Shown: one piece after another, positions 10,444 through 38,621 of the stretch
Layout: every line of letters begins with the position of its first letter
Position numbering within the stretch: the stretch's first letter is position 1
Origin: Taiwanofungus camphoratus
Lineage: Eukaryota; Basidiomycota; Agaricomycetes; Polyporales; Taiwanofungaceae
DNA: 64,000 nt
NCBI GenBank assembly: GCA_003999685.1
Contig: CP021231.1
Span: forward strand, 1,364,001-1,428,000
Reading direction: 5' to 3'
Made by a program: the position numbers and the translations under genes
The notes under the pieces: model-generated
The model's database searches: none
What the model saw: the letters and a program-made list of their open reading frames with translations, nothing else
Told to the model about the DNA's origin: nothing

Positions 10444-13028
10444 ATGGCGACTGCACACGCCCACGATGTCTACGCGGAACAGCTCTTCAAACGTGGAGAG
10501 GGTTATCCTCTGTGGGCACCCGAAGCTACTGAAGATGGCGAGGTGCTCATCGGCGATGTTGGCTACGTACGTAGAGGCGCTTTCTACCGAATGTTTAATG
10601 CTATGCGTGAGGGCGACGACGAAATCAACAAAACATGGGGCGTACCAGATGGGTTCAAGGAGTTTACCAGCCAAAATTTTGGGAAAAGGCGACAAGAAGC
10701 TGCAATCGATGCGGGTGCTTTGTGCAGCAAGAGTGTCCGGAAGATCTCGGTTGATGCAAGTTTATCCATGTACGTAGCAGTTTCTCCAGTTTTACACCAG
10801 CAATGCCATCTGATCGCTTTGAGATCCCTCAGGCATGGTGGAGGAGCAGGCTTCCACTTCGAATGCACCGACGATCAAGGTGCTATTCTCGTTCTCAAGG
10901 ATTCCGCCACCCGAGAGGAGATGCATCCCAGTCGCAAAATGAAGAACTACATGTTCAAAAACATTCAAAGCTGGCATTCGTTCGCTGTTGACAAATTAGA
11001 CGTTGAGATCGAGCTGGAGGGAATCATGTTCGTGCGAGGATGGGTGAAGACGACTGAATGGGCTGTTGCGGCGGTCCTTCATGAAGGAAGGAGCGCAAAG
11101 GTTTCGTTCAATGGAGATTTCGGGCTCCCTGCGGAGGCATCCTTCGAATTCTCTGCATCTCAGGAAGTGTCGGCATCCTATGCACACCGCTCTGGCCCTC
11201 CACGCAAGAAGAAGGAAAAGGGTGAAAAATCTAAAGCAAAGAACAGCCTAGATGCTGAACCCTACAAGGCGGACCAGTGTGTCTTCTTGCATTACTACAA
11301 GCTGAAGAAGAGGCGCTTTTTTGGGCCCAAAAGGCTCGAAGCTGCGGCTGAACCACGAGATCCATCTCCTTCATCTGATGACGAGGGGAATGCGATCGAG
11401 GCGGTGCCGGCCGTTGAAAAGGTATGCAGATATAGCGTTACGATTATGTATGGAAATTAAAAAGTTACAGCCGTATGATCCTGTCCAATTTGTCCTTGAC
11501 TATATTCTCGACGTATGTCTCCGATTTATGACTACCCTGCATATTGACTTATGATCCATGCCATTAGCATTCTCAAGCGGATGCCGCCATTGCCAGCGAT
11601 CGGGATATCATTGATTTATGTAATGTATGGAATCGCACTATCCCATTATTGTGGTCGACCTGATTAAGTGGCATCAAGGGCTCAGACATCCCCGACAACA
11701 TACCAGAATTCCTTGAGAATATCCAGCCACACGTCGAAGTCAACGATGATGGATGTTAGTTGGTTTCACATAATGTTCAGAACGATGGCACTGACACCAT
11801 TCACCCAGTGGGCATGCTTTTGTTTGACGACGCTATTGCGGACCGACCCGTCACAGAGAATACGGAGGCTGTATCACAGACTGCCAATGAAAGGCCCTTG
11901 GGACCATCAGGATCGCCCCCCGATGTGGTTGTGCAGGCTGATGAAAAGGAGCCAAGTGACGATGACCCCGACAAGAAACCGCCGCTCAGTATGATAGGCG
12001 AAGCTTCTCTCTTGGATCTTCCTATAGACGACCATAGGGGTGGCATCTGTGCTCTTGCGTACTCACCAGATGGTCGATATATTGCAAGCGGATTTGAAGA
12101 TTCCACAATCATTATATGGGACCCCGTCACCCGGCAGCGTCGGAGTACATTGCAGGATCATTTCGACACGGTGTGCTCGTTAGCATTCTCTCCAGACAGC
12201 ACCCGACTGGTTTCTGGTTCCCGCGATAAACGGTTGATCATCTGGGATGTTGCCTCCGGCCAAAGAGTTAACATCCTGGAGGGGCATCAGGGCTTCGTAG
12301 ACTCTGTCGCCTATTCTCCTGATGGCAACACGATTGCATCTGCATCCGTCGACTTTACTGTCCGGCTTTGGGATGCACATACTGGCATTGTACGATCCGT
12401 GTCTGGTGGGCACAATGCCATGGTGATGCTCGTCACTTTTTCTCCAGATGGACGGCGCTTGGTTTCGGCTAGCGCAGACTGTATTGTACGTGTGTGGAAT
12501 ACGAGTGACGACACACAGACGGCCATTCTTGATGGGCACCAGGGCGTCATATACTCTATTGCCTTCTCCCCTGATGGTCGTCGCATTGTGACGGGCTCTG
12601 ACGACGCGACCTGCCGAATCTGGAGTGCAGAGACAGGCGAAGAATTCGCTACTCTACGCGAGCACATGGGTTCAGTATGGGCTGTGACGTTCTCGCCAGA
12701 TGGGAAGCGTATACTATCCGTAGCAAGTGACCGGACGGTCAAGATTTGCGATTCATTCAGCGGCAGCCAGATCTCCTCTATAGACGGCAGCGAGGGTTTG
12801 GTGAACGCTGCTGCGTTCTCCGCAGACGGTGAATTCGTCTGCGCGGGTGCGGAGGACCACTCTGTGCGCGTGTGGAATACAAGTACCGGTAAACACATCG
12901 TGAATTTCGAAGGACACACTGACAGTGTCAGTCATCTACGCTTCTCTCCTGATGGCAAGCATATTGTGTCTGCTTCCGATGACGGCACAGTCCGGTTGTG
13001 GAATTTGGGTGACATTGTTGTCGGATGA
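10444..13028 (+). CDS. WD40-repeat protein with Agaricomycete-specific N-terminal domain
   Basis: Six exons (10444-10769, 10833-11421, 11471-11512, 11568-11624, 11679-11754, 11809-13028) sum to 2310 nt, 769 aa. The N-terminal ~340 residues begin MATAHAHDVYAEQLFK and contain GYPLWAPE, VGYVRRGAFYRMFNAM and FHFECTDDQGAILVLKD; this module recurs in mushroom WD40 proteins but has no known function. After a linker (IPDNIPEFLENIQPHV) come eight WD40 repeats, each with an SPDG or close variant and a terminal WD, WN, WS or CD, enough for one beta-propeller. The propeller is a likely protein-binding platform. The first intron (63 nt) is a multiple of three and lacks stops, so retention would stay in frame; splicing gives the family-like S-M-H-GGGAGFHFEC. 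A broken scrap of the same N-terminal module lies near 23.7 kb. Confidence 0.88.
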
Positions 13029-23763: not shown

Positions 23764-24899
23764 GCTACGTGCATCGGGTTGCCTCAAAGTGCCACTGGTG
23801 GGGAGGCATTGCGCCCGACTTGTGGAGTGAAAACCCACATGCAGGAGTATGGTCACTCCGACTTGTTCTGGCTAACCTACGCCTTGTGAGGGGCTGGTTG
23901 AAGACGTCGAATTAGGCTGCAGCACTTGTTGATGATGTGTAATGCGCATTTGGCGACTTCAAAAAGCACGGGAGACAAGGGGACTTGGAAGGCCATCCCA
24001 TCCACAACCAATATCACTCCGATGCTGCGAAGTAGGAGGATTGTATATCTCTGTGTTGCGTGAGTCAGAGCTAGACGAAACAACCGCAATGAGCTGAAAT
24101 GCACAGCAGCTGCTACGCCTTCCCGATATGTAATGGTCGTAGTCCATGTATGTTTGATCGCAAGCCTGACGATGAAGAGAGCAGCAGCTTAGGACACTTC
24201 AAATGTCTTGCTTCCTCTCGACGACAAACTTCAGGATTCTCCAATCAAAAAAATTAACTCGATTTAGAGCAAGTCTTCCTGCGGAAGAGCTGTGTGAGTC
24301 GCGAGTCGGCGTGCATTCTCGAGACCATGCCGATTCTCTGGAGCGGTGAAGGAGGACGCCATCTCCCGGAGTTCAGAAGACTTGGAAGAAACGAGTGTCT
24401 CTTCTCAGACAGAGTACAAGGGACGTCAGAGTGCAGAGGGCTCGGAAGAACCAGCCATCCCGGGAGGAGAATCTGCCTCCGAGTCACCGCATGTTGTGAA
24501 ATATCCGGCGTCGTCGTCATTGGTTCGCTTGCTGACGCCGGCGCACTCCTTCGTGGACTTTCCTTAGCCAGGGAAACAGCTTGCACTTGAGGTGGTATCA
24601 CCGGAGCTCGCCTGGCGCGAGCGCCCCACGTCATTGCTTCCATCGTAGCCTCCCAAAGACAGGCGGTGGATACTCTGCTTCAACCTTCGTATGTCAGGAT
24701 GCCCGCATTGCGCTCCTCCTTTCGTCGTCCAAACTTGTTTCAACGCTCAATACTTCTAGGCTCTTCCGCACTGTCACTTATGAATCAGTATCGTTCTGCA
24801 CCCCTTCCATTCAATCGTGGAACCAAGGCATGGTGCGGCCACTGCTCCGTGTCCCAAAACGCATCAAGGAGCCGATCCTCGAAAGCACAGGACAGCTGC
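23764..24899. other. Intergenic with unassigned open frames
   Basis: Two plus-strand frames stand out: an acidic Ser/Glu-rich one near 24346-24567 (SSEDLEETSVSSQTEYKG) and one at 24581-24949. Neither contains a recognised domain, and I could not join them by plausible introns. No gene is called. Confidence 0.4.
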
Positions 24900-27800
24900 C
24901 AATCTTGCAGACTCCCTGGATACGACCGCCCTCAGAGGACTGGCCCTAGGGTATGCTGGACAGCTCCTGATCCCAGTGGCAGTGGCTTCACACGACGCCG
25001 CCGGGCGCGCCTGCTGTTGGCAGCGACCGTCGAGTGCAGCCGTGGAGGTCGCCCCGACACAGATTCGGCCGAGTGGGGGCGCCAAGACAGACATTAGCCT
25101 CGCCACAGGAGGTGACGCCGGTGCACAATCGTCTCGGTAGAGTCCGTCGCCACAACGATCACCGCGCGGAGGGACAGCACAATGCCCGTGTGTGGCTAAC
25201 ACCCAGACATGCAACGAAGAGAGGCGGCGCGTAGAGGGTCGTGGCGCGATGCGCCGGGTTGCTCCAGCGGCCCCGCGTTTGATGCCGCGGCGCCAAACGA
25301 GATGGTCTCAGCCATGATCGGAATAGCGTAGACTGCGACACGAAAGCGAACGGGTGCGCGGATGCAGGCGTGCAGGCGAGCGATCCCTGCGGAAGCCTCG
25401 CTTTGCGCCTTGAATACAGATCCTGGGATGAGGAAGGGTTTCTTGGGCGGCGACCTGATGCCTGATGCCTGGTGCTTAGCAGGAGCGGGCGCGGGCGGGG
25501 CGGCAGGGTGTGGGGACAGGAAGGCCGGGAAAGGCGGGGCTGACGGGCGCCTTGAGCGAGTCTGATGCGAAGGAGGAGGCTCGGGGCGGGGATATGACAA
25601 GCAGGAGCGGAGGCGATGGTGTGGCGGGATGCAGGCAGGCCGAGAAAGCCGGAACGCGTCGCGAGCAGGTATGCATGATACGACGCGTGGTGTGTGTGTG
25701 CGGGGAAGTCAGAAATAGGCCGACGAGTAGCGGGTGGCAGCCCGGAGAGGCGACGCATCCGCGGTCAGGACGGCGGAGACGCCAGACTGAATCGCACGCT
25801 GCACGATGGTTGTCTACAGCTGCCATCTCGTGTCTAGTAAGTATCTGGGCAGACGCCCTTCGCGCGCGCGCGCGGTTCCGCACAGCACCCCGGAACAGCG
25901 AAGAGACACAGCAGCAGCACGCGAGCCGGCGCAGCCGCACCACAACGCCACGCTCCCGCCAGCAAGGGGCGGGAAGCTCAGAGGGACGGGCTGACAAGCG
26001 CCCCTCGCCACGACAGCGCGGGACAACGACACGCGCACGGCGCGCCGCACTCGGGAACGGGGTGGCGCAGGCGAGCAGTGCACCGCTGCGTCCCTGGGCC
26101 AGAGCAGCGCAGGACGTGCGCGCCAGCAGACGCGGGGCCGGCCAAGCGCGGCGTGGGGCGGCGCGCTGAAGCCGAGCAGCCCAGGATCCAGGGGCCAGTA
26201 TATCATACGATGCAGGCGAGAAGCCCGCGGGCGCAAGCGCGAGGACTGCCAGCGGGAATGCGGAGGTGCGCACAGGCACGAAGGATGCGCGGCCTGGGAG
26301 TCCGCGCGGCGCGCGGTGAGGGAGCGGCGAGCACGGCGGTGGGGTGGGCGAGGCTCGCTGGTAGCGGCGCGGGGAGGTCTGGACGGGCGACGTGGACGCG
26401 GTGTTTGCATGTGTCTTTTCCAGCCGGGGAGGATGTGATGAGGGGGGCGAGGGGGGCGAGGGAGGCGAGGGGGCGAGGGGGAGCGCAAGGGTGGGGGGAG
26501 CAAGAGGGAAGGGTACGAGTGGGACAGGACGGGGTTGAGGATACCGAGGAGATCAGAGGGGGAAGAAGGGGAGAGGAGCGCGAGCGCACGAGCAGCCCGC
26601 CCCGCCCGGGAGCTGTTCCTGGCGTCCCCGGTGGGAGGGGGGGCGGTGCCCGCGTGCAGTTCGAGGACGAGCAGTGTTGGCAGGGTCAAGCTTGACCCCC
26701 CGACTTTTGACGGGTCATGACCAGGTCCGGGGGTCTGGGGTCAGTGTCCAGAGGCCAGCACGTGATAATCGTCAAAGTCCCATGGCAGCCACTCGAGACA
26801 GACAACCCCGTCGATGTCAACCCTGAGCACCAGAGAACAACGAACGACGGCGGGCAGCCTGCGCGCGGTGGTGCGTGGCCAACGTCGGGGGTCAAATGTC
26901 AGCTGGCGGATGGCAAGTAGCGGATAATCGGAGTGAGGCGTGCGTGCACCGAGCGGGCACTCCGCACGCCGCGTGTACTCGATCATGTTTGCGTGAAGCA
27001 GGGGGGACGCACCTCCCGCGGTCGTCCCGTGCAGAGTCTGAGCCGCTGGAGGGCAGCGGCGAGCGCGCCGGGTGCATGTCGCCCGAGCACGGCCGTGTGA
27101 TTGTGCGATCGCGCGTCCGTACGGTGTTGCGATGGAGCACGCGTACAAGGTGCCACCGAGCGAACAAGCTTCGAGGTCTTGGCGGCCGACAGGAGACCAC
27201 AGGGAGACACGGCTGTGCTGACACCTTGTGGCAAATTGCTTGTAGGGCGACAGGGCCACTCTGTAAAAAGCGTAGTCAACGTGGGTGCAAAAATTGCCGG
27301 ACTAGATGCGCGACTGGCCTGGAACATATTCAGCCACCGAAAGGCAAGAAATTTGACTAGTTAATCACGTTGAGCAAATTTAGTACCAGAAGGCCGACTT
27401 TTATTTTTTTAAAGAGAGGGACAGGAGACGCGCCGTTTGCGTTACATTGTTTGCATCCGTACTTGGAATATTGTACGTACTAGAGCGCCAGTCGGACGCA
27501 AGGGCCGCATGTACCAATGAGGCAACCGGGCGTCTGGAATGCGAGCCAAGCACATAGATCCGGGGGAGATGGATTTCCGTGCGAACGTGTCAGGATGAGC
27601 GCCAGGCAGATAGGCACGCGCAGAAGAGAAGACGCGAAGCGGGGACCTGGCTGTGCGCTGTGGGCGGGGAGAAGCAGACACCTGAGAAAGAGCCTTTGCG
27701 CGCGGGCTGCGATTGGCCGCGGGTGGGGGGCGCTCGGACATGGCGCACAGGGAGCCCAGACGTGCGACAGGGAGCTGCACAGGCTGCTGCGATCGCCGCG

Positions 27801-28623
27801 GCCAAGGCCGAGGCCGATGAACGGGCAGTCGAGCGAGATCGTGGGCGTGAGACGGCGCGAGAGGGGAGACGCCGAGGCGCAGGGCCTGTGGTGCGACGGT
27901 GTAGCGGTGAAACATGGGGCGAAGGAGAACGGGGACACACGGGCAGAGTACGCGCGGGCCAAGGCAGCGGGCGTCGATAGCGCGCAAGTGATTGGACGCA
28001 GACAGGGCGAGGCCAATCGATGGTTCATTTTGTCCAAGCACTTGGGTCGGGCACGCGCCGTCGATGTGATCGGGCGATCGAGCACGCAGCGCCTGCGAAC
28101 GTGAGACGAATTCATCTCCCCCGCCGTCAGCGGGCGCAGGACGTCGACGTCGGTGCGGGGGGCGCATCCGGTGGACACGCTGGCGGGTGCCACGCGATGA
28201 CGCGTGCGCGCGTCATGGCAGCATCAGCACGATCACCGCTCGGCGCAGCCACAAGCGCCCGCTGCGCACAGCCCACGGCCGGCGGCACGCTTACCTAATG
28301 GTCGGGCGCGGGCAAGTCCCGGCCTGTTCCATTCGTTGCGCTGTTCTCGCCCATACTTATCTCCTCAGCTCTCTCTCGCCTGCTCGCCCGTCTGTCCTCC
28401 CACGTCCGACTGCTACGCACGCAAGGCCTCCGCCTCCTCTGGCCTACGACCGACCCCCACACGCCCGCGCCCCGCCACTCTGCGAGGCCCACGCCTGTAA
28501 CTCTACCGGCACACACCGCGCGCCTCGTTGCCTAGTGCACTGCTTCCGACTCTCAGCCAGCGCACCCTCAGTCCTTTCCCTACCCCCGCACGTCTCCACT
28601 TCCACGCCCACCCCGCTACGCCC
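24900..28623. other. Start of a GC-rich block, no supported gene
   Basis: Base composition rises sharply here and stays very GC-rich to about 31.8 kb. Long open frames occur on both strands and in several frames over the same bases (for example around 25.5-26.7 kb), the usual result of stop-codon scarcity in GC-rich DNA. Their translations are low-complexity Arg/Ala/Pro/Ser and show no domain. Purine-rich runs of GAGGGGGGC type lie at 26435-26520, and a perfect 16-bp palindrome GGGTCAAGCTTGACCC at 26685-26700. The last part is pyrimidine-rich and probably contains the rho2 promoter and 5' UTR. Confidence 0.5.
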
Positions 28624-30810
28624 ATGTCCTCTCAGAACCCCGTGCGTGCCGTCTCCCCTCACTGCTCCTGCACCCCCGCTCACGCTACCCGCTTTGTCCC
28701 TCCAGATCCGCAGGAAACTCGTCATCGTCGGCGATGGTGCGTCTCGCTCTCCCCCTGCTCCTGCTCCCTGTCCTTGTCCCATTGCCTCTGCCGTGCTCAC
28801 ATCTCGTTCTCCCATGCTCTCCCTTCCTGCCCTCCCACACGCGCGACTTCCACTACGTGCCGCACCCGCTCGCGCTCACGCTGTTATCCGCCACTCGGTC
28901 CCATACCGGACGGCGACACTCTACCCATCGACCAGGCGCGTGCGGCAAGACGTCCCTCCTCTGCTCCTTTGCGCTCGGCGAGTTCCCCAAGGAATACGTG
29001 CGTCCCTCTCCTCTCTTCCGCTCCTGCTCTTGTTCCACATTCCTGCTGCCTTTCTCCCTCACGAAGCGCACACGCCGCCCTTTCCCGTTTCCTTGGTGCA
29101 TTTCCGTTTCCATCCTCCCCCGCGTGCCTTCTCTCTATTTCTGCTTCCGCTTTCCCACTTCCGCTCCCACCGCTTGTATTCCCTTACCCCCGCACGTATA
29201 GCTAACCTTCTCTCGTTGTACTCACAGCAACCAAGTACGTGCCCTCGCAATCTCGCCCCCCTCACCATCTCCGCACACCCCTTCTGATCCCCCGCTCTCG
29301 CCGTCCACAGCCATCTTTGAAAACTACGTCGCCGAGATCCGGCTCGACGGCAAGCCCGTGCAGCTCGCGCTCTGGGATACCGCGTGCGTCCCCTCGTCCC
29401 TTCCTTCTCTCCGTCCCTCGCTGACCAGGTGATGTGATGATGCTGTGCGGTCGTGCTGGCGGGGTGATTTGTTTTCGTTTCGCTTCGTGTTCTTTGATTG
29501 GGCGCTGGTTCTGTTTTGGGTGGATTCGGGTTTGCGTTGGGCTTGATCTTGGGTCTGGGCGGTTGTACGTGCGTGCGTGCGTGGGTGGTTTCATGCGGTG
29601 TAGTGGGCAGGAGGAGTATGAGGTGCGTGCCCTCGGCGCGGTGTGAGAGCCTACGGCTGATTGTGTCCTTGTCTCTCTTCTTGCCGTTGCCTTCGTCGTG
29701 CTCTCGTCTCTCGGTGCTGTCCCGCTCCCCTCTTGGCGCACCTCTCTTTGTCTCACCGTCTGGCATGATGCCCGGTTGCCGGCATGCCTGACGCTCACCG
29801 TCTTCCCTACTCGCCCTCCCTGCCACCCTGCGAACGTCCCCCGACCTCACGGTACATTGTCGTGGCATATGCTGCGGACGAATTGCTGCGGACAGCGCCT
29901 GCGCCCGATGTCGTACTCCAAGTCGCACGTCATCCTCATCGCGTTTGCGATCGACACGCCGGACTCGCTCGACAACGTCACTGTCAAGGTGCGTTTTGGC
30001 TCGTTTTGCGTTGTTCGTCCGTCTGCTCTCGATTGTTTCGGGTTGGGTTGTGGGTCCGCCGGGTGCTTTTCGCGCTGCGGGCGCGAGCGTTCGCCGTGTG
30101 GTTCACAGTCCACTCTTCGCTCGTTCCATTTCGTTTCGTTTTCGCCGCGCGCGCACGCTGCTGACGACTTGCTTCCCTCTCGTGCGGTGCCCACGCCGGA
30201 AACTACGACTGCGGCCGCGACATTACAGTGGATAGAAGAAGTACGGTCCATTTGCGGGACGACGATCCCCGTCATCCTCGTCGGGTGCAAGTCGGACCTG
30301 CGCCCACCAGAAGGTGCGTCGGCTGTGTTGTTGTCGAGTGGGCGGACCGGCATGCTGACCCGCGTAACCCTTGTTCCTTCTTTGTCTACCCCCGCTGCTT
30401 TCACCCACCCTCGCCACTCCCGCCCTTCCGTCCCTCCGCGCTCTCCCCGCCCGCGTGCCCCTTGCCTCCCCCTGCTCTCCCTCCCCTCCCCCTCCCCCCC
30501 CCACACACACGCAGGCGCGGCCTCGTCGCGCGCCTTCGTCTCGCGCGCAGACGCGGAGCGCGTCGCGCAGGCGATCGGGGCGCGCGCGTACAAGGAGTGC
30601 AGCGCGCTCAAGATCGAGGGCGTCGACGACGTGTTCGAGGCGGCGACGCGCGCGAGCATGCTCATGCGCGAGGGCGTGCCTGCGCACGTGCCGAGCGCGC
30701 GGCGGGAGCGCCGGCGGAGCGGCGGGGTGGGCTGGCGGCAGGGGCAGGGGCTGGGGCTGGGGCAGGGGCAGGGCGCGTGGGAGGGCGGACGGTGTTGTGT
30801 GATTTGTTAG
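28624..30810 (+). CDS. rho2: Rho2-type small GTPase
   Basis: Membrane-bound Rho GTPase; in fission yeast Rho2 acts through protein kinase C in cell-wall alpha-glucan synthesis and polarity. Nine exons: 28624-28641, 28706-28736, 28936-28997, 29228-29234, 29311-29383, 29604-29622, 29896-29988, 30229-30313, 30515-30810; they sum to 684 nt (227 aa). The order is P-loop GDGACGKT (split by an intron), switch I EYQPTIFENYV assembled from three exons including a 7-nt one, DTAGQEEYE containing a 19-nt exon, SYSKSHVILIAFAIDTPDSL, the base-binding GCKSDL, and CSALKIEGVDDVFEAATRA. The match to fission yeast Rho2 is close. The C-terminus is extended by a basic patch (ARRERRRS) and Gly/Gln repeats before CCVIC, a CaaX box with an adjacent Cys for palmitoylation. 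Nearly all donors are GTGCGT, reflecting local GC content. Confidence 0.93.
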
Positions 30811-30839
30811 GGGTTGGTGGGGGGTTGCTTGGCGAGACT

Positions 30840-30887
30840 GGGAGGGAGAAGGGAGGGAAGGGAGGGAGAAGGGAGGGGGGGGTTGTG
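30840..30887 (+). repeat. G-tract repeat in the rho2 3' region
   Basis: Runs of GGGAGGGAGAAGGGAGGGAA follow the rho2 stop codon by about 30 bp on the sense strand. Many GGG runs separated by 1-3 bases meet the usual pattern for a G-quadruplex, in DNA or in the 3' UTR of the mRNA. A related G-rich repeat encodes the Gly/Gln stretch at about 30734-30775. Confidence 0.7.
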
Positions 30888-31532
30888 GATAAGGTGTTGG
30901 GGAGGGGTTTGGGGAGGATGGAGGGGGTTGTGATCCTGGAGGCTGGCTCCGTTGAGTTGTCCCGCCTCTGCTGCGTGCCCGGCTGACGTCGCCCGGCCGC
31001 GCTGACCGCCCATGCCCGCGCCCGCTCGCGCGCGTGCGCTGCTCGTTTCTGCTTACTCTCGTTACACGCGGACGGACCTGTCGGACCTGCTGTCTCCTTC
31101 TCTGTTTGTGCGGATGTGGTCGGATATGTCGCGTTCTTATTTTTTTCTTTCCCCCTTCCCGCTGCCTCCCCCCCTCCTTTTTTTTCTATTTTACGTTTTT
31201 GATTTTATCCACACGTTCTCTTGTCGTGCTTTTTTTTTTTTTTATTTCTGCGCTTTTTTTTGCTCCCGTTTCTCTGTGTTCTTGCATTATGGATATGGAT
31301 CCGGATCTGGCGCCCTACCCTCGCTTTGCCGCCCCCGCCCCACCCGCCTGTTTGTCTGCTTCCGCCGCACCCCAGCACCATCTCACGCATCTTCATGTGC
31401 CCGCTCATCTGGCCTGTCTCCCTCTCCGTCTCCGTCTCCGTCTCGTTTTCTTCGCATACGCCGTTAGAACTTAGCACGCCCCATGCAGTAGTAGGCCCGC
31501 ATCGCGCATTGTTTGTCTGGCGCCTGCGCACA

Positions 31533-31552
31533 CACGCACGCACGCACGCACG
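31533..31552. repeat. (ACGC)n microsatellite
   Basis: About five copies of a CACG/ACGC tetranucleotide in the 3' flank of rho2. Confidence 0.8.
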
Positions 31553-31654
31553 TACCGCCGCGCCGCCCGGACGCTATACATGTTTCGTCTCTGTGTCTCT
31601 CGTTTGTTCACGATCTGGACGTGGATTTGCACGGATGTGGATGGACGTGCCGCT

Positions 31655-31715
31655 GTGCTCGTGCTCGTGCCGGTGCTCGTGCTCGTGATTGTGATCGTGA
31701 ATGTACTCGTGATGG
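31655..31715. repeat. (GTGCTC)n imperfect hexamer repeat
   Basis: About ten copies of GTGCTC and drifting variants (GTGATC, GTGATT, GTACTC). Divisible by three and open in one frame, but no gene context supports translation. Confidence 0.75.
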
Positions 31716-33208
31716 CGGAAATCGACTGTGAGGCAAGAGCGGTCGATGCGCCCACGCTGGAACGCACTTTGGAGGTGCGCGTCGCATGAGGGAACGTGGA
31801 CGGCGCACACTGTACCAGCGAACGTCCACTCACTAAATGAGCGCCCGTCGACGCGTCTGGGTGTACGCGATGATCACATGATCGGACATGATCTGATACG
31901 AGAGCCCAAAGTGACTACTATCACGTGATGCCATTAGAAGACCCGATGTCTGAGAGTGGCTTATTGTGAACTCTCCGTGGGATGTTCCCAAGACCAGATG
32001 TCGTCTGAAATAGTCTAGAAAATCATGCAACACAACTGTCATTTTTTGATTTTTGAAAGAGGGGAACAAGTTCAATGAGAATGTCAGAAAATCTATTTAT
32101 TTGGTTAATCACTATTCTTCTATCCTTTTGTCTCATTTCAAACCATGGCTGCTTAGTTCTTGCACTTGTGTCAAACTCAAGCACACCATAATATGCAATC
32201 TCCCAAAAATTTTCAGAACTTATTACATCAGGAAAAATTGAAAATCCACTGAAAGGCATTTGTCAGTGATTTCAAAGGTCTCAGAAGCTTTCAGTAACCA
32301 TTAGAAGCAATCAATTAATCAGCTGTTAAAACTTGAAATTTTTGAGAATTTCTGGTGCTCAAATTTCTCAGAACCTGAACTTTCAATCTCACACTGTGCA
32401 ACTTCATGGACACATAGCATAGTAGAACTGGCACCAAATGTTTCAATAGTATATAAAACATATTCTTATAATAGCACTAAGAAAAACATTGAGATGCGCT
32501 CATGTGGGAGCCAAAAGAGTATATTTTGATCAGAGGCTTCAGATGGTCAGGTGATCAGCAATTTTCCTGATGCTACTATATAGGGGATGTCAGACCACTT
32601 CTTAGGTTAGCCTCAGGACTCTCTAGATTGTATCACCAGGTATCAGAGTATGTCTGGTATGTAGATCATTGTAGTGTACACAGCTAGTCTCTCCAGGCAG
32701 ATTCAACCTTCATGCCTCAGGATATCCGTATCTAACATCTGCTATATGATAGGGGCCCATATCAGGAGGTCAGAAATTTACTCCGCAAACGAGACTCTGT
32801 AGCAAACGTTTTCTTGTGTTAAATCTCCGCTCAAAGTCTCGGCAGATGCGCTCTACCAATACAGGCTCCGAACCAAATGGGGGACATGTTCGAAATACAC
32901 ACAGCTCATCCTGAATAAACAGCATGAAAATGAAAGGATAGCCCGGTCATCCTTAGCTTTAAGTCAAATGTGTCGATCCATAATGCATATGTCCTTAGTG
33001 GAGTACAAAAGGGCGGTTGACTCATCGAGTGTGGTGTCCCAAGATGATTGTTAGATAACCCATCACCAGCCTAGCCTACGTGGCGTCCCCTCTCCCTTCC
33101 ACACGCCGATCCCACCCCAGCGACCGTGGATCCACAATACGGAGCATCGTAGACTAGGCGTGTGTGCTGGGCTGGCCAATCGATGGGCTAAATCGAAGAG
33201 ATGGGTAC

Positions 33209-34385
33209 TCATGGTTTTACTGGAAGGGAGGCGTCAGGATATCCTGAGAAAGGGACCTCAGAATGTACAACCACACGCACTACATAGCGTCCTGTCGCAT
33301 AGCCTGTGCGAGTAAGCAACCTGGGCTCTCGCCCGTCCCTCGTCATCTCATGCGAGCACCTTGCGGCGAGCTTGTTCACGTAGACGATGAGCTCGCGCCA
33401 GCTGCCGTCGACGTCTAGCACGAGCGCCTGGCCGCCGTATTTGCTGTAAAAAGAGGCACTTCGTCAGCATGGGTACGCACGCGAGCATGCACCGAGACCA
33501 ACCCCTCCACCCCAACCTCACGACTGACACGGGTGAGCTCCTTCGCAATGCGGCTCATCTTATCTGCCTTGCCAGCCATAGGATCCAATCAGCACTGGCC
33601 ATCGGAGATGGGACGTAAATAAGGAACGAGGTACATACCAAGGAGTTGATGCGCTCTTTGATCTGGAAGGGCACGATGCCCAACACCTGGACCGTCATCC
33701 GCTGCGTGAAGTCGCCGCGGATAACGGCATTGCATACTCGGATAGCGTCCTGCACGACCGCCTTTAGCATCTGCAGCTCCTCCTCCACGCTGAACCGGTT
33801 GTTCGGCAGAGACACCTCAGACCGACGCAGGAACGTCAGGCGTAAACTGATCGGCTCGGCGAGCGGGGCAGCGACCTTAGCTAGCGTCTCGCTGTCCGTT
33901 ATCGGCTGCCCACAACTGGGGCAGGAGGCATAGTCACCGTGCGAGGCAAACACAGAAGCAGGCTCGTTCTCATCTTCGTGGAGGCTTCCAGTATGTTCAG
34001 GGCGATCGACATCCAGATCCGTTTGGGAAGGCACAGGCTGCGGGGAGGAAGACATCCGTACGTCGCTGCTATCGCTGTCGGTCGTGGGAGGATAGCTGCG
34101 TGCACTATGAGCTTGAAGAGCGTTGTCGCCGTTACGACGCTTCTTGTGCCCTGGACCAACAGTCTCAGACGCAGAGGGTGAGTCGAGGGCTGCCTCAGCG
34201 GAGTGCATACGGCGGGCTATATTCCCAAGCGAGCGCAGGATGGAGTCAGTCTGCGGGGTGGACGGGCCGTCATAGACGGGTAGGGTGGAAGTTGCTGGGC
34301 CCGACTCATAGAGGGCGAGTAGGGTAGCAAGGTGCTGTATGAAGGGACGTTCAACGTGCCCGGGATTGGCGGTGATGGCAGCCAT
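33209..34385 (-). CDS. Kinase-less Nik1-like HAMP protein, copy A
   Basis: Exons 33639-34385, 33503-33567 and 33209-33443 sum to 1047 nt (348 aa). The start MAAITANPGHVERPFIQHLA leads into TDSILRSLGNIARRMHSAEA, a Ser-rich linker with CPSCGQPITDSETLAKVAAP, then VCNAVIRGDFTQRMTVQVLG, ELTRVSREVGVEG and GGQALVLDVDGSWRELIVYV followed by NKLAA. In group III hybrid histidine kinases (Nik1/Os-1) the equivalent text is the first HAMP linker and the start of the next repeat, followed by further HAMPs, kinase and receiver. Here the frame runs into about 40 unrelated residues and ends, and no kinase exon lies in the 2.4 kb beyond. It is probably a soluble truncated paralogue. Expression and role in the HOG osmostress pathway are unknown. 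Confidence 0.8.
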
Positions 34386-35585
34386 TCGGAGATCGTAAAT
34401 AAGGACAAGACGGAGAATACGCACTGGGTGGGTTGGGGCTCGAGGTATCAACACAGCCAAAGTCAATCTCGCGATATAAGTGTGTATTGGCCCTGGGTGA
34501 ACGTGATTATCTACTAGATCACGACGGATCTCGCCGTCCGCTGCCGGCCGCCCATCCGTAGCAAAGAATTCCTGCTTGACCTCTCAAAATATGTGCTAAT
34601 ACTCCCCATCGGCTCATGTGCTGAACAGTCATAGCTGCAGGCATCGTCTAACGGACAAATCAGAACGTTGAGGGTGCTCAAAGGGCGTATAAACAGGCAT
34701 AAGATTCGAAAGGAGACCGTTAGGAATGTTCAAGATCAATATATACTCAGAGAAAGACATCACGTGCCAGGTGACCCGGTGACACCAGCCGGCGGCATGC
34801 CAAGAACAACTGGCTGGAAGCAGACGGAGATGAATAGATGACTGACCATGCAGAGACATTAGGGATAAAGTTAGACCTGGTGCCTTACAACGGACTCGTC
34901 AGCTCGCGGTATTGTGGAATGAAAGCAGGAGACTCTGCAAATTCAACTACACATCCTAGCGCGAGGATATTGGACCATGTATGTATTTTTCATCCCGCAA
35001 GTCTTAAAATCCACTATTGTTGCTTGAGACATGACACATGAACCAATCGATGTTCTACTGCTCGCCTCAGCAGCTCGAGATCACCGAGAGACATTCATGG
35101 TAGGCGAAAGGCTGCCTGTAGTTGCCGTTTCGACAAGTCGAAACGTCACCAGGTTCGTTTAATCTTCCTGTCAGATGTACTTGCTGTATGTAGTAGAGTA
35201 CGGGCAAACTATAAAGTTGACGATCTGGCGATAGATGATGGAGGTTAGTACCACAACGTCACAATTACAACCCTCGACTGGCGCAGGTTGTTCAGCATAG
35301 GCATTAAGAGGTTCTCTGAACCTACGTGATGATGTGAGAGGTACAGAACTATGACCATAGCAACTATCCGAATGCCGACCCAGGCCACCTCCTGCCTAGG
35401 CTTACCAGCATACTGGCTATCATCTTCTCCAAACCCCCTCGCTCGACTGCGGGAGATAGGAATCCCCGCGAACTCTCATACGCACCGTGCGCTGGCAGAC
35501 GCGTAAAGCTGGCTACACGACTGAATTGGTTCTCGTGTCTTCACTGACTTGGATCTGTTGAGAAGTAAACCAGAGAATACCTTGA
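34386..35585. other. Intergenic between the two HAMP genes
   Basis: About 1.2 kb. It should hold the promoter of copy A and the 3' end of copy B. No gene, kinase exon or repeat was recognised. Confidence 0.5.
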
Positions 35586-36675
35586 TCAGGCATACTCCGC
35601 ATAATGCCTTCGCGAACTCGGCCTCCGCTCACACCCATTTTTCTTCACCTGTGACAACCTTGCCGCGAGCTTATTCACCAAGACAATGAGGTCACGCCAG
35701 CTGCCGTCGACATCTAGAACGAGCGCTTGACCACCGTATTTGCTGCGAAAACAGCATCTTGTTAGCTGGGAGATAAAGGCGATCATTCACTCATACAGAC
35801 CCTTCCACTCCGACTTCCCGGCTAACACGAGTGATTTCCTTGACGATTCGGCCTATTTGATTCGTCTGCCAAGGATGTAAGGTCAAACCAGCACCGCTCA
35901 TAGAAAATGGATTCCGCGGAAGACGACATACCAATATGTTGATACGTTCCTTAATTTGGAAAGGTACGATACCCAATACTTGAACAGTCATCCTCTGCGT
36001 GAAATCTCCCCGTAGAATAGCGTTACAGACCCGCACGGCATCCTGTACTATTGCCTTTATCATCTGCAGCTCCTCCTCTACGCTGAGCTCGCCGTTCGGC
36101 AGAGAAACCATGGATTGTCGAAGGAAATGCAAGCGCAGGCTGACTGGCTCAGCGAGCGGGACAGCAACTTTAGCCAGTGTCTCGCTGTCCGTTACAGGCT
36201 TTTCGCAGATCGGACACGAGACGCGGTCAGAAGATGAAGGAAAGATGGATACAGGTCCACTTTTGTTTTCATAGGATGTCCCAGCATTCTCCGGCTGATC
36301 AGCAGCATCCTCGTATATCTGAGTGGCCGCAAGCCGTGCCCGGACATCATTGGCGCTCCCTCTCATGGAAGGATAGCTCTGCGGACTCTCTGCACTAGAA
36401 CTAGCGTGGGTTGCATTGAAGTTGCTGCGGCGTCTCTTGGTTTCTGGACCACAATCCTCGGATCCAGAGCCACTTGCAATAGCAGCCTCAGCGATATGCA
36501 TGCGGCGTGCGATATTCTCGACAGAGTGCAAGATAGAGTCGGTTTGTGGACTGGACGGCCCACTGTAAGTGGGTGGCGAAGTGATTGGGCCAGACTCGTA
36601 CAAGGCCAACAGAGTAGCGAGGTGCCGTATGAAGGGATATTCACCCGCTTCGCAGTTGTCGATGAAGGCAGCCAT
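35586..36675 (-). CDS. Kinase-less Nik1-like HAMP protein, copy B
   Basis: Paralogue of copy A with the same exon plan: 35932-36675, 35801-35865 and 35586-35742, 966 nt, 321 aa. The middle exon has exactly the same length (65 nt) in both. It starts MAAFIDNCEAGEYPFIRHLA; a longer in-frame start exists at 36696. Conserved blocks are YESGPITSPP, QTDSILHSVENIARRMHIAE, CPICEKPVTDSETLAKVAVP, VCNAILRGDFTQRMTVQVLG, EITRVSREVGVEG and LDVDGSWRDLIVLVNKLAAR. Like copy A it stops just after the first repeat (LSQVKKNGCERR), so truncation came before duplication. The Cys pair CPIC and the region around it are shared by both copies and may bind metal, but the second pair expected of a zinc site is not visible. 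A long palindrome begins about 100 bp before its start. Confidence 0.8.
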
Positions 36676-36776
36676 CCGAGGACCAATATTGGACAAGATG
36701 GGGGTTGAAAGTTGGAACTGCAGACTGGGTGTTCTGGACCAGCCAATCTATGTAAGAATGTACTTCCAGATGGCAC

Positions 36777-37555
36777 TTATTGCCGTTTGCAGTAAAGTTG
36801 GCACACGCGGCGGTGTCACGCATTTTGCTCGTTTTCGACAGTCAGGAAAGATGTATCTGTAGCTCAAGAACGAGAGACCGGAACACCCTACATAGGGGGT
36901 GATCGTTGAAGCTCTGAATGAGGGCTATTGAGCCCCATAGATATCATCGTGTTATGTGGTGATCCCATCAATGCCATTTTGGCCCTGCCCTGTGGGCAAA
37001 ACATTTCCTCTAGAGACAAATGAATGTACTTCAAAAATTGCCTATTATACCAAAGGGATCTGTTTGCATGTCTGAAGTGAGCCCTGGCAAAAAGAATGGC
37101 ACACAAGCAAGCATTGAAGGCTTGAAGCACAATTGAGAGATTATATGATATATACGACGCAGGTTTGGTCACATGATTAGTCTCGGATGTGGATTTGCAG
37201 CAAAAACCTCAATTCAGCTTCAACACTTGCTTATGTGTGCCATTCTGTTTTTGCCGGGGCTTGGACATGCAAACAGATCCCTTTGATATAATAGACAATT
37301 TTTGAAGTACATTCATTTGTCTCTAGAGGAAATGTTTTGCCCACAGGGCAGGGCCAAAATGGCATTGATGGGATCACCACATAACACGATGATATCTATG
37401 GGGCTCAATAGCCCTCATTCAGAGCTTCAACGATCACCCCCTATGCAGGGTGTTCCGGTCTCTCGTTCTTGAGCTACAGGTACATCTTTCCTGACTGTCG
37501 AAAACAAAATGCGTGACACCGCCGCGTGTGCCAACTTTACTGCAAACGGTAATAA
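36777..37555. repeat. Long near-perfect palindrome (foldback inverted repeat)
   Basis: The outer ~290 bp of each arm (36777-37072 and 37264-37555) are almost identical in inverted orientation, differing by a few bases and one 4-bp gap in the right arm. The repeat continues inward with more divergence to about 37137 and 37208, leaving a loop of about 70 bp. The ends read TTATTGCCG and CGGTAATAA. No coding capacity or clear target duplication is seen. It could be a foldback DNA transposon or a local inverted duplication. Transcription would give a long hairpin RNA. Confidence 0.85.
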
Positions 37556-37833
37556 TTGAAGATTGAATATTGAATATCGGACGCACATGAACTTGAGTTA
37601 TCAGTGCGGGCGCTAAGTTTCGCGATCACCAGACTTGAATCACGTGTGTTTGCGCCATTATGGTGAAGTGATCGTGGTATGCGGCAGTGGAGGTCGTCGG
37701 CAAGGACGCTGACCTTGGTGTACTACGAAAACTGTGAATGTTCAGCGCTATCAACCGTCTTCGCCTGCTGTTTCCGTCTTTATCTCCACTCTCCCAAGGC
37801 CAGTTGCATAACCGTGGTGTCAGTTCTTCAACT

Positions 37834-38621
37834 ATGTCAGGTACGCACTCACCAGAACCTAAGGCGGGTGAAATTAAATGGAATGTGTTTTACTGAGCAG
37901 GAGGCAATCCGGAAATCGCAACCTTTGCAGCTGGCTGTTTCTGGGGTGTAGAGCACATCTTTCTGAAGTATTATCCCATTGCGCAGAACAAAGGCATCCT
38001 CAAGACTAGCGTCGGGTTCACCGGCGGGAAGGATGATGCCAAGAACCCCAGCTACAAGCAAGTGTGCACAGGAACGACGGACCACGCAGAAGCTGTCAGG
38101 ATCGAGTTCGATCCTGACGTTGTATCTTACGATGAGCTCGTCGGTTCGTGAACGAGTTCATTGGACCAACGAGGACAGATATCGATGGCATGGTCATTCG
38201 TCCTGCAGAGTTCTTTTATCGGACACACGACCCTACGCAATTTAACAAGCAAGGCGCTGATACTGGGACTCGTATGTGCCATCAAATCATCCTTGCCTGA
38301 CCCCAGAGCTAACGTCTATTTGATTCCGAAACTCGAACAGAATACCGCTCTGCGATTTTCTACCAATCGCAGCAACAGCTCGAGATCGCCAAGCGTGTTA
38401 CTGAAGAAATTCAAAAGACGCGTTTCGATCCCAAAGGTAGTCTCAGTCATCGTCTTGGGGCTCAGTGGTGTTCAATACTCCCCTTACCGGATGCAGGCCA
38501 GAAAATCGTCACGCAGATCGCACCAGCAGGACCATGGTGGGATGCTGAGGAGTACCACCAGGAGTACCTCCACAAAAATCCTTCGGGGTACCAGTGCCCT
38601 ACCCATCGCTTGCATTGGTGA
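37834..38621 (+). CDS. msrA: Peptide methionine-(S)-S-oxide reductase
   Basis: Reduces methionine sulfoxide in proteins using thioredoxin. Five exons (37834-37840, 37901-38143, 38209-38271, 38341-38436, 38497-38621) sum to 534 nt, 177 aa. The first exon is only 7 nt: ATG TCA G. The active-site motif GCFWG lies at residues 13-17 ([13 protein letters not shown]), followed by [20 protein letters not shown], the family signature [55 protein letters not shown] and the C-terminal [20 protein letters not shown] then CPTHRLHW. Length and residues match eukaryotic MsrA. There is no targeting peptide, so it is probably cytosolic. Confidence 0.94.

Follow-up and report, generated by a model that had tools for sequence, protein, structure and literature searches.

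A 64,000-nucleotide window of genomic DNA (C12:1364001-1428000, from a genome of 15 contigs and 33.19 Mb) carries two tandem genes, T1 and T2, that retain the N-terminus and a single HAMP repeat of a group III (Nik1-type) histidine kinase. A third truncated gene, T3, is found with the full-length kinase, FL, on contig C14. Judged by their sequences, T1, T2, and T3 look like old selected genes, not debris. These kinase-less paralogues most likely act like microproteins, a reading to which we give about an even chance. Because the copies appear to have been preserved by selection, they probably encode short proteins that partner the full-length sensor, either competing with it or tuning it.

T1 (348 aa) and T2 (321 aa) are encoded on the minus strand, each with two introns, and both are open to a TGA codon after splicing. 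Their exons are as follows.

35932..36675, minus strand: T2 exon 1, encoding the N-terminus, a variable stretch, the CPxC...TDSETLAKV block, and HAMP1 helix 1 plus connector (248 codons, stop-free)
35801..35865, minus strand: T2 exon 2, 65 nt, encoding HAMP1 helix 2 (TNQIGRIVKEITRVSREVGVEG), with length and phase as in T1, T3, and FL
35586..35742, minus strand: T2 exon 3, encoding the HAMP-like linker KYGGQALVLDVDGSWRDL...NKLAA and a 24-residue tail, followed by TGA
33639..34385, minus strand: T1 exon 1 (249 codons, stop-free)
33503..33567, minus strand: T1 exon 2, 65 nt, with an upstream AAG acceptor (CAG in T2, T3, and FL)
33209..33443, minus strand: T1 exon 3, encoding the linker to NKLAA and a 50-residue tail, followed by TGA

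An earlier note on this DNA described a common exon plan with an identical 65-nt middle exon. The intron positions of T1 and T2 do agree with each other and with those of T3 and FL, and the middle exon has the same length in all four genes, but its sequence is not identical, since T1 and T2 share only 44 of the 65 bases. Intron 1 of T1 (33568-33638) ends in AAG, and use of a competing CAG 5 nt further on would shift the frame and give an early stop and a shorter protein. Donor sites include GTTGGT, GTCTGT, and GTCCGC, which look weak relative to the donor consensus. The GC content at third codon positions (0.67, 0.55, and 0.72 in T1, T2, and T3) exceeds that of the introns (0.53, 0.48, and 0.59).

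Several other features lie in the window. A foldback (MITE-like) element at 36774-37558, with 242-nt arms that are 98% complementary and 54-nt outer arms, recurs, whole or in part, on many contigs (20 candidates scored, 48 matches). The element stops approximately 100 bp short of the T2 start codon, on the upstream side, and may affect the T2 promoter. Just past it is an exon for peptide methionine sulfoxide reductase (PMSR; 37900-38151, E value of 6.2e-25). A GC-rich island spans 24001-32000 (60 to 66% GC, versus 47 to 52% in the remaining window), with strong skew shifts at 26 to 30 kb; a Ras-family match falls within 29647-30807 (E value of 4.6e-11). A long open frame at 11760-13025 contains WD40 repeats in eight stretches and is, we presume, possibly Tup1-like.

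When T2 was used to search the whole genome, 14 matches were obtained from 15 candidates, on C12 and C14 only, and T1 exon 1 matched the query with an E value of 2.0e-87. With T3 as the query and E values of up to 10, there were 22 matches from 22 candidates, and the 5 that fell outside the C12 and C14 loci had E values of 1.0 to 1.2. Chance similarity among T1, T2, T3, and FL is excluded by these E values. The inventory consists of three intact truncated copies, one disabled exon 1 relic, and one full-length group III kinase, the last of which the earlier note had presupposed and which a genome-wide check located on C14.

C14, start at 931480 with exons down to ~926 kb, minus strand: FL, the full-length kinase (profile matches)
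C14:935976-937097, plus strand: T3, an intact truncated gene of 327 aa (homology and open frame)
C14, ~935016-935599, minus strand: kinase exon 1 relic, disabled (matches spread over three frames, stops present)

T3 and FL are divergently oriented and ~4.5 kb apart on C14, and the relic sits between them, head to head with T3. Besides its HAMP repeats, FL contains HisKA and HATPase_c, as well as a receiver piece that scores under its Pfam cut-off. The truncated genes share 44 to 53% identity with FL over 321 to 345 codons and have the intron positions of FL, which shows common descent with the group III family. T1 and T2 match FL in the N-terminus, HAMP1, and the GGQALVLDV...NKLAA linker, and their frames terminate 24 to 50 residues after NKLA. 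The proposals that both genes keep only the group III N-terminus and HAMP repeat 1 and that they stop soon past NKLAA are thus borne out.

The HisKA profile gave two matches in the whole genome (4 candidates scored), one in FL and one on C6, with none on C12; the HATPase_c profile gave 10 matches (10 candidates scored), with none on C12. All 6 Pfam HAMP matches in the genome are within FL. T1 and T2 are therefore without the HisKA/H-box and HATPase_c combination of group III kinases, and in place of tandem HAMP domains they have one repeat, 83 residues from RVCN to NKLA[AS], whereas FL has a period of 93 residues and further repeats. Since HisKA and HATPase_c matches are absent from C12, no kinase exon was found for joining in cis. 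The earlier note had named transcripts joining these exons to a distant kinase domain as evidence against its proposal; such a cis transcript is refuted, as far as genome searches reach. That T1 and T2 are really full-length genes, with exons spliced to distant kinase exons and an apparent stop created by annotation, is accordingly very improbable; the stop-terminated tail common to the copies also argues against it, and nothing turned up in its favor.

Comparison of the three copies within one genome revealed constraint, not the neutrality that, together with disabled copies in close relatives, the earlier note had regarded as fatal to its idea. By the NG86 method, omega was 0.14 for T1-T2, 0.21 for T1-T3, and 0.11 for T2-T3, values that are rough because silent divergence is saturated (dS of 2.1, 2.0, and 4.0, respectively). 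This saturation excludes a recent T1/T2 duplication. The bootstrap ranges of the raw pN/pS ratio, a conservative measure, were 0.28 to 0.42 for T1-T2, 0.39 to 0.53 for T1-T3, and 0.37 to 0.50 for T2-T3, and no value across 3 x 2000 bootstraps exceeded 0.60. In neutral simulations that scored stops only and ignored indels, the number of runs (of 3000) in which T2 exon 1 stayed stop-free was 21 at 0.3 substitutions per site, 3 at 0.5, and 1 at 1.0. Identity between T1 and T2 varied along the protein, at 70% for residues 1 to 70, 33% for residues 71 to 150, 72% for the CPxC block, 81% for HAMP1, 93% for the 27-codon linker, and 38% for the tail. Because the linker lies in frame behind two introns and is so well conserved, in-frame splicing has presumably worked and mattered. 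With FL as the outgroup, unique residues numbered 58 in T1 versus 37 in T3 and 57 in T2 versus 31 in T3; with T3 as the reference, T1 and T2 were about equal (29 versus 24). From these counts, the C12 pair probably evolved faster than T3 and so may be less constrained.

The order of truncation and duplication was read from the C-terminal tails.

35586..35660, minus strand: T2 tail of the truncated family (RLSQVKKNGCERRPSSRRHYAEYA, stop); T2-T3 score of 43, reached by 0 of 2000 shuffles
33209..33361, minus strand: T1 tail of the truncated family (RCSHEMTRDGREPRLLTRTGYATG..., stop); score reached by 0 of 2000 shuffles for T1-T3 and by 70 of 2000 for T1-T2

After NKLA(A/S), FL continues without an intron as NLTNQVRSIAKV..., and the truncated copies continue into tails with the common core (K/R)xG(R/C)ExR. 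We considered the tail as drifted FL sequence and rejected this, since the tails of T1, T2, and T3 match FL at chance in protein (scores reached by 1241, 1573, and 462 of 2000 shuffles); the DNA scores against FL were reached by 93, 555, and 853 of 1000 shuffles. Among the copies themselves, the direct T1-T2 protein match is weak, and tail DNA similarity was significant for T2-T3 alone (0 of 1000 shuffles), marginal for T1-T3 (76 of 1000), and no better than shuffles for T1-T2 (325 of 1000). The T1 tail is therefore placed by its similarity to the T3 protein. Because a tail common to T1, T2, and T3 is missing in FL, a single truncation probably came before the duplications. One truncated ancestor, with T1 linked through T3, is the simplest account, and the suggestion that truncation preceded duplication is, to that extent, probable.

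HAMP domains pair in kinases, and HAMP1 is an interaction domain. The HAMP units of T1, T2, and T3 cover 83 of the 93 residues of the HAMP-pair period and, in a comparison that took in FL repeats 1 to 6 and left out the last HAMP beside HisKA, were 59 to 64% identical to repeat 1, versus 30 to 42% for the five following repeats. Positions that are apolar in FL HAMP1 are still apolar at 29, 28, and 29 of 31 sites in T1, T2, and T3 (raw counts), and 7, 9, and 5 of the other 59 positions have turned apolar. Across HAMP1 and the linker, 13 positions are invariant in T1 to T3 and different in FL. Neither T1 nor T2 matched the Pfam HAMP profiles (PF00672 and PF18947) at an E value of 1, the T2 query being taken minus 3 junction and 20 tail residues, and T3 scored under the Pfam cut-offs (18.6 bits versus 24.3 for HAMP_2 and 12.4 versus 25 for HAMP). 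By phmmer, the T2 HAMP unit matched the poly-HAMP histidine kinase structure 9trk_A in three stretches, with an E value of 4.8e-42. An AlphaFold2 model of T2 exon 1 with T1, built from a two-row alignment, had a mean pLDDT of 38 and was set aside. A lone HAMP unit may be too short for stable pairing. PMC3848655 describes the repeats of CaNik1p as 92-residue concatenated HAMP pairs and reports that deletion of every HAMP domain of CaNik1p led to Hog1p activation in the absence of stimulus. This finding indicates that the HAMP region holds the kinase at rest, and a disruptor of HAMP packing could shift signaling either way.

An NLS-like K[KR]RR motif occupies one alignment position in T1, T2, T3, and FL.

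36427..36438, minus strand: T2 KRRR, NLS-like motif, aa 80 to 83
34134..34145, minus strand: T1 KKRR, NLS-like motif, aa 81 to 84

According to passages of a study of Aspergillus fumigatus TcsC (PMC11253588), nuclear targeting and retention of that kinase require its N-terminus, which also suffices for both. The same passages report that removal of the 208 N-terminal residues abolished the hyperosmotic response and nuclear localization and left fludioxonil action unaffected, that nuclear location of TcsC itself was dispensable for the osmotic response, and that a HAMP-free fragment, TcsC 1-208, was nuclear and excluded from the nucleolus, from which its authors infer binding to something unknown (PMC11253588). 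Reading T1 and T2 through TcsC assumes that the A. fumigatus N-terminus is equivalent to the N-terminus here. Since the TcsC N-terminus is needed for the osmotic response and not for fludioxonil, binding of an N-terminal partner or pairing through HAMP1 fits an osmotic or nuclear function better than the drug response. On the same passages (PMC11253588), the fludioxonil-response role that the earlier note had suggested is weak.

In the mechanism that we propose, a duplicate of the kinase gene would have lost everything past HAMP repeat 1, after which it would have gained a short tail and been copied, and purifying selection has maintained the truncated copies. The resulting proteins retain the N-terminus, with its NLS-like KKRR, and one HAMP-pair unit, without kinase and receiver. 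They would pair with HAMP1 of FL to form mixed, unproductive coiled coils or, alternatively, would occupy the partner bound by the FL N-terminus, and either route would lower or reshape FL output. Hetero-oligomerization of T1, T2, and T3 with FL and tuning of HOG signaling, as suggested in the earlier note, are plausible. The sequences themselves show homology, gene structure, the one full-length kinase, the shared tail, motif conservation, and purifying selection among the copies, whereas expression, nuclear location, binding, and inhibition by the T proteins are inferred.

The microprotein-like role was placed first, a function independent of FL second, and decay third. Independence from FL is possible, at well under an even chance. 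The N-terminal block (CPxC...TDSETLAKV) and the first 70 residues would then be the acting parts, and HAMP1 would serve for homodimers only, for example in nuclear scaffold or binding proteins. Conservation of both N-terminal segments between T1 and T2 and the nuclear location of HAMP-free TcsC 1-208, as given in the passages cited (PMC11253588), agree with such a function, and the 13 HAMP1 and linker positions that the copies share and FL does not are as expected for private pairing. However, HAMP1 and the linker make up the best-conserved stretch, of a domain type that pairs in kinases, and most sites that are apolar in FL HAMP1 stay so.

Decay, in which the genes are partial kinase-gene duplicates heading for loss like the C14 relic, is unlikely, though T3 does have a disabled exon 1 relic beside it, T1 has its AAG acceptor, and unique residues are more numerous in T1 and T2 than in T3. 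Against these observations stand three copies that are open despite saturated silent divergence, a pN/pS ratio that exceeded 0.60 in no bootstrap, the rarity of a stop-free exon 1 in the neutral runs, and an in-frame exon 3 linker whose conservation implies working splicing.

Judged against FL, the T genes resemble group III kinases (Nik1/Hik1/TcsC/Tco1 type) in their N-terminus, NLS-like motif, HAMP1, linker, and introns, but they are without HAMP repeats 2 onward, HisKA, HATPase_c, and receiver, and they have their own C-terminal tail. Like microproteins, they are derived from a larger multidomain protein, with an interaction domain retained and the functional domain gone. They are unlike them in descending from a fungal histidine kinase, in that interference is predicted only, and in their size, 321 to 348 aa being larger than most microproteins. 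The LRR-only relatives of plant SERK kinases, as discussed in PMC7318236, similarly combine an interaction part and a targeting signal with no catalytic domain. The TcsC 1-746 construct in the A. fumigatus passages (PMC11253588) also has the N-terminus and HAMP region without the signaling module and is nuclear; it is, however, a laboratory product with the full set of HAMP domains, where the T proteins have one repeat. The poly-HAMP-Gcn4p fusions in PDB entries 9trk and 9trj match the T2 HAMP unit and linker (E values of 4.8e-42 and 3.8e-23), although there the HAMP stretch belongs to a kinase.

The earlier note knew of no described system of this kind. That a truncated paralogue can act as an interfering regulator is a known idea (PMC7318236). 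For group III kinases, no description of kinase-less Nik1 paralogues was found among the matches listed (titles and abstract openings, with subscription literature mostly outside). The ambruticin-sensing proteins AskA to AskC were considered as a precedent for a HAMP-only partner and were rejected, as all three are called hybrid histidine kinases in the passages of PMC7643160. For Wallemia ichthyophaga, the passages of PMC4904012 report one WiNik1 and do not contain the string "truncat".

Passages of PMC4965123 state that the H-box, with N-terminal domains, defines histidine-kinase groups; the T proteins, without an H-box, would escape censuses keyed to it. We tentatively propose, as a possibility well short of an even chance, that fungi have evolved dedicated HAMP microproteins, maintained by selection, that set the threshold of the group III osmosensor by entering its poly-HAMP assembly or taking its nuclear docking site, and that H-box-keyed censuses have missed them. 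If such proteins are common, gene lists based on the H-box overlook a layer of regulators. For stress sensing by the group III poly-HAMP region, natural one-repeat proteins, if under selection, would reveal the part responsible for pairing or docking, and they would offer ready-made dominant negatives for work on the HOG phosphorelay.
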